NCBI GenBank assembly: GCA_015056925.1
Contig: SVFJ01000005.1
Coordinates: 1-64,000 of the forward strand
DNA length: 64,000 nucleotides
Direction: 5' to 3'
Source: Lachnospiraceae bacterium
GTDB taxonomy: Bacteria > Bacillota > Clostridia > Lachnospirales > Lachnospiraceae
The notes under the pieces were generated by a model, which was not told the origin of the DNA, did not search any database, and worked only from the letters and a program-made list of their open reading frames with translations. The translations under genes and the position numbers were made by a program. Below, piece by piece: positions 62,301 through 64,000 of the stretch; the stretch's first letter is position 1; each line of letters starts with the position of its first letter.

Positions 62301-62645
62301 TTACATTGACAATTTATACACCGCCAACTGGTTAAGGCTCACACCTTCCCTCTCTGCTTCAATTGCCAGTCTCTGATGTAATGACTTTGGCAATCTCACA
62401 ACAAACTTTCCACTATAATCATCAGCAGTATTAGGCATTGGAATTGGTAAATTATTCTCTAACTTTACTTCTATATATCCTTCCAATGCTTCATTTAAAC
62501 ACTCATACAACTCTTCTAACGTATCTCCTGTACTTTGGCAACCATCAAGCTCTAAAATTCTTCCATAGAAATAATGTCCTGATTCATCATTCATTTCCTG
62601 TATTATTCTAGTATATGGTAACTCTAAGTAATCTTGCACTTCCAT
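62301..62645 (-). CDS. hicB: HicB-like antitoxin
   Basis: GRILELDGCQSTGDTLEELYECLNEALEGYI...KFVVRLPKSLHQRLAIEAEREGVSLNQL; start approximate. Confidence 0.85.
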   Translation of the reverse strand: MEVQDYLELPYTRIIQEMNDESGHYFYGRILELDGCQSTGDTLEELYECLNEALEGYIEVKLENNLPIPMPNTADDYSGKFVVRLPKSLHQRLAIEAEREGVSLNQLAVYKLSM

Positions 62646-62924
62646 GCGTTTCATCATCCAACCTCCATATCTATACTGACTGACATTGCTGTCTCTCTAC
62701 ACTCAACCTTCGTACATAATTCAAAACTAATTTTTTTAAATTCTTTCCTCTGTAAATTCAACTAATTCCTGTTGATTTTCAAAACTCTTTCCTTTACAAT
62801 TCAAGCTGTTTTCTCTTGAATTACAATTCTTCTTTATAAAATATAAAGAAGTCTTCACCTCCTCACACTAAATATAGTGTGGTTAAAATGCTGCATGATT
62901 TATAGTTATTCAGAATAGGAGTTT

Positions 62925-63227
62925 TTATTCTCCTATTCTGCGTAAGATATCTTTTACATATGCCTTTTTCAACGGATTCTCTTGCTTGATTGTTATTACA
63001 TCTCCAGTCGTTTTATTTAAGTACTGTCTGTGACTTCCTTTTTGTCTTACAGGCTCATATCCGTAGGCAATTAATACTTTTTCGGCTTCCTCTGGCCTGA
63101 TACCATGTGGTTGCCTTTTCATCTTATCGATGTTTTTTTCAACGTCCGCCAAGTTCTCACCTCCCTTGTACATAGTATCATATATAATACTATTTGTCAA
63201 CACTTTTGATACTATATTCAGTATCAC
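62925..63227 (-). CDS. hicA: HicA-like toxin
   Basis: EEAEKVLIAYGYEPVRQKGSHRQYLN; true start likely internal. Confidence 0.8.
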   Translation of the reverse strand: MILNIVSKVLTNSIIYDTMYKGGENLADVEKNIDKMKRQPHGIRPEEAEKVLIAYGYEPVRQKGSHRQYLNKTTGDVITIKQENPLKKAYVKDILRRIGE

Positions 63228-63351: not shown

Positions 63352-63450
63352 CTACTGCTTGTGCAAAATGCGATATACGAATCTGTAAATACGTTTCAAT
63401 TCTTTTTCGCTTGCATTGCCAAGCATTTCAATGATAGCCTGCTTAAACAT
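63352..63450 (-). CDS. 32-aa microprotein, paralogue of 62043-62138
   Basis: MFKQAIIEMLGNASEKELKRIYRFVYRILHKQ. Confidence 0.55.
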   Translation of the reverse strand: MFKQAIIEMLGNASEKELKRIYRFVYRILHKQ

Positions 63451-63545
63451 CCTATTACTTCCTCTCTTTGTTGATGATGTTAATATAACATAGAAAAGGT
63501 ATAAAATCTACACTCATGCTTTCATATCTTATAAAATTTATTCAT

Positions 63546-63725
63546 AACGAAAAAAGCTCAGAAGATAGAATTTCTATCTCTGAGCTTTCTCCGTTCATTT
63601 TCGTCATTTGGATTCATAGTCACACTAATCCTCCAACTATCTCCTTATTGCGTACAAGAACTTGAAGTCACACTTCGCATATCCTTGTATATCAGCAAGT
63701 CTTAGTCACACTATCCCTACTGATA
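63546..63725 (-). ncRNA. Multi-hairpin small RNA with three AGTGTGACT motifs
   Basis: Promoter TTGACA-N18-TATAAT (plus-strand 63731-63760), hairpins, terminator 63546-63586. Confidence 0.7.
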
Positions 63726-63838
63726 TACAAATTATATACTTTTATTTGCTATTATGTCAAGTTTTTGCTTATATAAAAATTAAACAAATTAAAATAGATT
63801 AATACAATTTGAAATAAATTAACACGCTTCTATACGGC

Positions 63839-64000
63839 CTAAACAATTCTAAATAATCCCACAATATCTTTACAGTTCCCTTCTATCGAAAAACATTTAT
63901 TCATAAAATTATTAGATACATTATAAAAATTTTTAGAACCATTTACATTTCTCATGAATGAATCAGGAGCAAAATCTGCTATCTGAAGCCCTATGCAATT
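63839..64000 (-). CDS. C-terminal fragment of DUF3800-like protein (runs off window)
   Basis: ...NCIGLQIADFAPDSFMRNVNGSKNFYNVSNNFMNKC. Confidence 0.6.
   Translation of the reverse strand, partial: NCIGLQIADFAPDSFMRNVNGSKNFYNVSNNFMNKCFSIEGNCKDIVGLFRIV

Follow-up and report, generated by a model that had tools for sequence, protein, structure and literature searches.

A three-hairpin RNA beside a DUF3800 gene in a Lachnospiraceae prophage: a probable dedicated partner of the encoded protein

What is the role of a small RNA that has a consensus promoter of its own and presents one nine-nucleotide motif in each of three hairpins? An element of this kind spans 63760-63546 on the minus strand of the window, the whole 64,000-nucleotide stretch analysed here, which lies on a 69,936-bp contig from a Lachnospiraceae bacterium; it runs from a promoter through three hairpins, each displaying AGTGTGACT, to a terminator. 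The initial annotation, drawn within the limits 63546-63760, missed the DUF3800 gene just upstream. We propose that the RNA is very probably the dedicated partner of the protein which that gene encodes. We further propose, with a probability of roughly 0.48 for the reading as a whole, that this partner RNA restrains a DUF3800 nuclease in a toxin-antitoxin-like or abortive-infection module of a prophage.

Direct reading of the sequence places a sigma-70-type promoter, TTGACA-N18-TATAAT, at 63731-63760 on the minus strand, just as first claimed, with the -35 box TTGACA at 63760-63755, TATAAT at 63736-63731 and a spacer of 18 nt; the match to consensus is exact. Downstream on the same strand, hairpin module 1 folds at 63685-63730 with AGTGTGACT at 63704-63712. 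Module 2, at 63649-63679, carries the motif at 63666-63674 within GAAGTGTGACTTC; its inner stem is part of the minimum-energy fold, and its outer stem, TGCG/CGCA, is less certain. Module 3 forms by local fold at 63608-63636 with the motif at 63618-63626, and an intrinsic terminator hairpin with a T run follows at 63546-63595. The initial annotation was right to describe three motif copies and a long terminator, and to read the letters flanking the copies as T..A, A..T and T..A. Its account of two hairpins needs amendment. The first copy does lie within hairpin 1, not in a plain large loop but in a small inner stem-loop, UAG-UGUGA-CUA, atop an internal loop; the third does lie in a hairpin, but TTGGATT...AATCCAA is not a literal contiguous helix, since GGAT and TGAA intervene (TTGGA[GGAT]TAG-TGTGA-CTA[TGAA]TCCAA). 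Hairpins 1 and 3 share a plan of outer stem, internal loop and short inner stem closing a UGUGA loop. The 9-nt core is common to all three hairpins, but the outer stems are dissimilar and the units are not copies joined head to tail. The putative 191-nt transcript has a folding energy of -65.4 kcal/mol, compared with a mean of -38.2 for shuffled sequences (z -7.1). The window holds three exact copies of AGTGTGACT, all on the minus strand and one per hairpin, where 0.40 would be expected; three of the ten exact copies in the 3.5-Mb genome fall within the RNA, and just two further sites in the window show any 9-mer three times within 100 nt.

Is this architecture conserved? The same layout of DUF3800 gene, promoter and three hairpins recurs in relatives with 33-44% protein identity, from other Lachnospiraceae and Clostridiaceae genomes and one 159-kb viral contig; the RNA lies directly 3' of the DUF3800 gene in these relatives, and a promoter of the same type stands at the same place in all homologues. 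In an alignment of seven sequences, both partners have changed, with pairing kept, in 18 of the 24 base pairs. The covariation score is 0.80 versus 0.30 in shuffles, none of 500 shuffles reaches it, and sliding the partner as a control cuts it to 0.27 or less. For module 1, both partners have changed in the homologues in 7 of 9 pairs of the outer stem and 2 of 3 of the inner stem; for module 3 this holds for 7 of 8 pairs. Adding two loci from outside the covariance model (L029 and L277) gives the same picture, in an alignment fitted to that model. The loop of hairpin 2 is one base longer in L023 and L024, and module 3 itself passes directly into the T run in L025, L026 and L028. Conservation of the motif copies in homologues was examined, and the copies are conserved; a structured, strongly promoted small RNA repeating one motif, as originally described, is upheld by sequence and by covariation.

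The motif itself is not fixed. In homologues it turns into GGTGTGACC or GGTGTAACC with flanks that are still complementary, and among loci it takes the forms AGUGUGACU, GGUGUGACC and GGUGUAACC, or AGCUUGUCU in a sister class, shifting along with DUF3800. The sister class (L019 and L022), whose DUF3800 proteins are 40 and 42% identical to that of the window, keeps this shape, and its hairpins 1 and 3 carry TAGCTTGTCTA or TAGCTTAGTCTA. Likewise, the pair adjoining the loop-closing G-C is of one type in all hairpins of a locus: it is A-U in the window, L023 and L024, and G-C in the remaining loci. This concerted choice across hairpins suggests, as far as sequence comparison goes, a single recognising partner; the loci being related, the switch between A-U and G-C may have happened only once.

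How closely is the RNA tied to the DUF3800 gene? A protein search of 397 genomes of the family gave matches in eight, and the covariance model found the RNA in three of the 397, exactly those with the three best protein matches (G000, the window's own genome, G192 and G111); among 391 sampled genomes of the class, the model found the RNA in G000 only. The RNA adjoins a DUF3800 gene at the window locus and in 9 of 9 independent relatives that have it; as the model was made from RNAs beside DUF3800, presence there is partly by design, whereas absence elsewhere is not, and the model found no RNA away from DUF3800 in the 397 family genomes or the 391 of the class. The G111 RNA (L277), which lay outside model building, is on another contig, directly after the 3' end of DUF3800. 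Distances between RNAs follow those between proteins at eight loci (Mantel r 0.95, p 2e-4), a correlation that co-inheritance alone would also give. Two broad motif-pair patterns were also run on viral contigs: the first-set loci that were read among the matches listed (L033, L044 and L070) have repeats that look protein-coding, and the covariance model gave nothing below E 0.9 at the 99 second-set loci among the matches listed. A stricter pattern yielded 12 loci, of which the two best scorers, L269 and L270, are coding repeats. In the G111 assembly, the contig ending at L013 breaks inside the RNA promoter and the contig starting at L277 breaks inside the 3' part of DUF3800; both breaks occur at AAGTGTCGAAAAC-type inverted ends resembling an insertion sequence, and about 110 bases are found on both sides, reflecting two alleles or a duplication.

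The partner gene enters the window with its 3' end at 63839-64000 on the minus strand (PF12686, E 1.4e-12; predicted RNase HII-like fold). The full open reading frame has 245 codons (contig 63839-64576), is on the same strand as the RNA and 5' of it, and crosses the right edge of the window; it ends with a stop at 63839, 78 nt upstream of the -35 box of the RNA, and its likely start, judged from the sequence, is a GTG at 64561 behind AGGAGG. Sequence reading places TTGATA-N17-TATAAT upstream of the gene, so gene and RNA each seem to have a promoter of their own. Pfam assigns the upstream gene to DUF3800 alone, with no ToxN, CptN, TenpN or AbiQ family, PADLOC has no model matching the protein, and a DUF3800 profile compared with PDB chains by sequence gave no match. 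An AlphaFold2 model built with nine relatives had pLDDT 80.9 and pTM 0.83. Foldseek put RNase HII at the top of its list, with a marginal E of 2.3e-3; VIA-align, applied to that list, aligned RNase HII with Z 10.0 (160 residues, 3.8 angstrom), and the top 15 rows were all RNase HII, H2 and H3 chains (Z 10.0 to 8.4). Residues D14, E15, E148 and D201 are invariant across ten relatives. The model thus predicts an RNase H-type fold with conserved acidic residues, from which we infer nuclease activity; an RNase H fold with catalytic rearrangement has been reported independently for DUF3800 (PMC10910872). At one further locus (L029, 4001-4691), the middle of DUF3800, with E148 and D201, is missing, and hairpin 3 has been lost where foreign sequence begins, with the promoter and hairpins 1 and 2 kept; both partners seem to be decaying together.

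Structured RNAs beside DUF3800 genes have been described before. Rfam holds DUF3800-I (RF02969), DUF3800-VII (RF02967) and DUF3800-IX (RF02968), and PMC10910872 refers to Weinberg et al. 2017 on noncoding RNAs that accompany DUF3800. The window RNA resembles these in being a structured noncoding RNA beside a DUF3800 gene, conserved by covariation, and differs in that its motif and three-hairpin layout are absent from Rfam. The window RNA and its relatives had no relevant match in Rfam 15 at gathering or relaxed thresholds, and RF02969 and RF02967, searched by name over the whole genome, were not found. We therefore file the RNA as a separate family among the DUF3800-associated RNAs, a new family of putative DUF3800 partner RNAs set apart by Rfam models only. 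The sequences 3' of distant DUF3800 genes give folds of other RNAs, none of which has a DUF3800 match in Rfam. On a Psychrobacillus glaciei plasmid (L286:829-1158), a distant DUF3800 gene is followed by an RNA with three similar hairpins (AATTGGTTTTCCGATT) and then a terminator, and the three-module plan may be wider than the window's RNA family. Proteobacterial DUF3800 genes (L282, L283, L285, L287, L288, L289 and L290) have in common a GC-rich element around GCGCCGACCGGGAAC..CCCAGTCCACTT, near the stop codon, with no Rfam match above cut-off.

The gene content around the RNA and DUF3800 indicates that the cassette is carried in a prophage: reading of open reading frames gives terminase, portal, capsid, tape-measure and endolysin genes to its left, and a serine recombinase at 64720-66186 to its right. 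A viral contig in IMG/VR (38,117 bp) is 100% identical over the 6,345 bases compared. Two phage-like contigs, 159 kb and 176 kb long, encode close relatives of the window's DUF3800, and when viral contigs were scanned again using a broader protein alignment, the same two came up. The cassette also has toxin-antitoxin neighbours in its prophage arm, the genes for the toxin HicA (62925-63149) and the antitoxin HicB (62301-62657), both on the minus strand. Between the RNA and HicA there is a 32-codon open reading frame (MFKQAIIEMLGNASEKELKRIYRFVYRILHKQ; 63353-63451, minus strand), which has a good ribosome-binding site and no Pfam match.

We propose that the prophage carries the pair as a toxin-antitoxin-like or abortive-infection module, in which each of the three hairpins would be a probable candidate binding site for the DUF3800 protein. 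The abundant RNA would keep the RNase HII-like nuclease inactive, in the manner of a type III RNA antitoxin, and loss of the RNA, for example when another phage shuts down host transcription, would free the nuclease. This polarity, with the RNA as antitoxin and DUF3800 as toxin, draws on analogy, and we give it an even chance. The closest tested analogue is AbiF/RCd22 of Clostridioides difficile, a type III-like pair in which a two-motif RNA binds and neutralises a prophage-encoded protein (PMC12373285), and it is by analogy with this pair that we picture the RNA as holding the nuclease inactive. Both pairs are prophage-borne and set a noncoding RNA with repeated hairpins and its own strong transcription unit beside a protein gene. 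AbiF, however, is an Abi_2 protein and its RNA has two motifs and lies 5' of the gene, whereas here the protein is DUF3800 and the RNA has three motifs and lies 3'. Moreover, binding and neutralisation were shown for AbiF/RCd22, whereas for the window pair we infer the binding, as well as the identity of the toxic partner and the defence role. ToxIN, CptIN and TenpIN likewise pair a nuclease gene with a repeat-bearing RNA, and ToxIN has three RNA units binding three proteins (PMC8860590); the protein family is unrelated, however, the gene order is opposite, and the repeats are head-to-tail and form pseudoknots, in contrast to the degenerate hairpins of the window RNA. By definition, a type III RNA antitoxin gene lies 5' of its toxin under one promoter, with a terminator between them (PMC8860590). 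The window RNA departs from this order, being 3' of DUF3800 under its own promoter; because of gene order and protein family we do not file the pair as type III, although it may work like one all the same. The suggestion of a TA-type antitoxin RNA in the initial annotation is compatible with these observations, and since the RNA is locked to a nuclease-like gene it comes close to our best explanation.

Could the roles be reversed, with the three-hairpin RNA harmful and DUF3800 a protein antitoxin that cleaves or sequesters it? We regard this as improbable. It would accord with the exactly consensus promoter of the RNA and with a predicted fold typical of enzymes that cut RNA. In Legionella, moreover, a strain-specific DUF3800 gene is essential by transposon sequencing, with a transposon whose outward promoter reduces polar effects, and it appears in a list with antitoxin genes (PMC7811196). 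Since one would expect a toxin gene to be dispensable, this essentiality counts against DUF3800 as toxin. The Legionella protein, however, is a distant homologue at best, and a toxic RNA of such a kind is not known. The L029 locus, where the promoter and two hairpins persist despite deletion of the catalytic part of DUF3800, also speaks against a harmful RNA, yet hairpin 3 has been lost as well. The specific version, in which a toxic RNA of three protein-binding hairpins is destroyed or masked by an RNase HII-like DUF3800 antitoxin, appears distinctly improbable; if true and general for DUF3800, it would mean that bacteria and phages carry a new class of module for addiction or defence.

Alternatively, the RNA might serve as a cofactor or scaffold of DUF3800, activating or positioning the protein, for instance in a prophage defence or counter-defence ribonucleoprotein without toxin-antitoxin logic. 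DUF3800 proteins do occur as accessory nucleases at some Cas12a2 and type VI-F CRISPR loci (PMC10910872; PMC12669027), and the relatives in the two large phage-like contigs fit such a role. We saw neither a conserved third gene next to the cassette nor a variable segment able to guide, however, and we consider this reading unlikely. An RNA-guided nuclease of the TnpB or IscB-like kind was dropped, since a guide segment is lacking: in L025, L026 and L028 the RNA ends in module 3 and the T run. That the RNA is a sponge for an unrelated host protein or RNA, with DUF3800 a mere neighbour, is very unlikely. This proposal of the initial annotation appeals to the three exposed copies of AGTGTGACT, but it found no support here: the motif varies by locus along with DUF3800 and is not fixed to a host target, near-complements in the window are at chance (15 found versus 12.4 expected), and the RNA was not found away from DUF3800 in the genomes of the family and class.

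Finally, DUF3800 proteins are found on phages, on plasmids and beside some CRISPR systems, and RNAs adjacent to them have been catalogued since 2017; a literature search found no tested function for these RNAs. The family in the window offers a small and clear test case, with one short gene, one RNA and three equivalent sites whose sequence varies in step from locus to locus.
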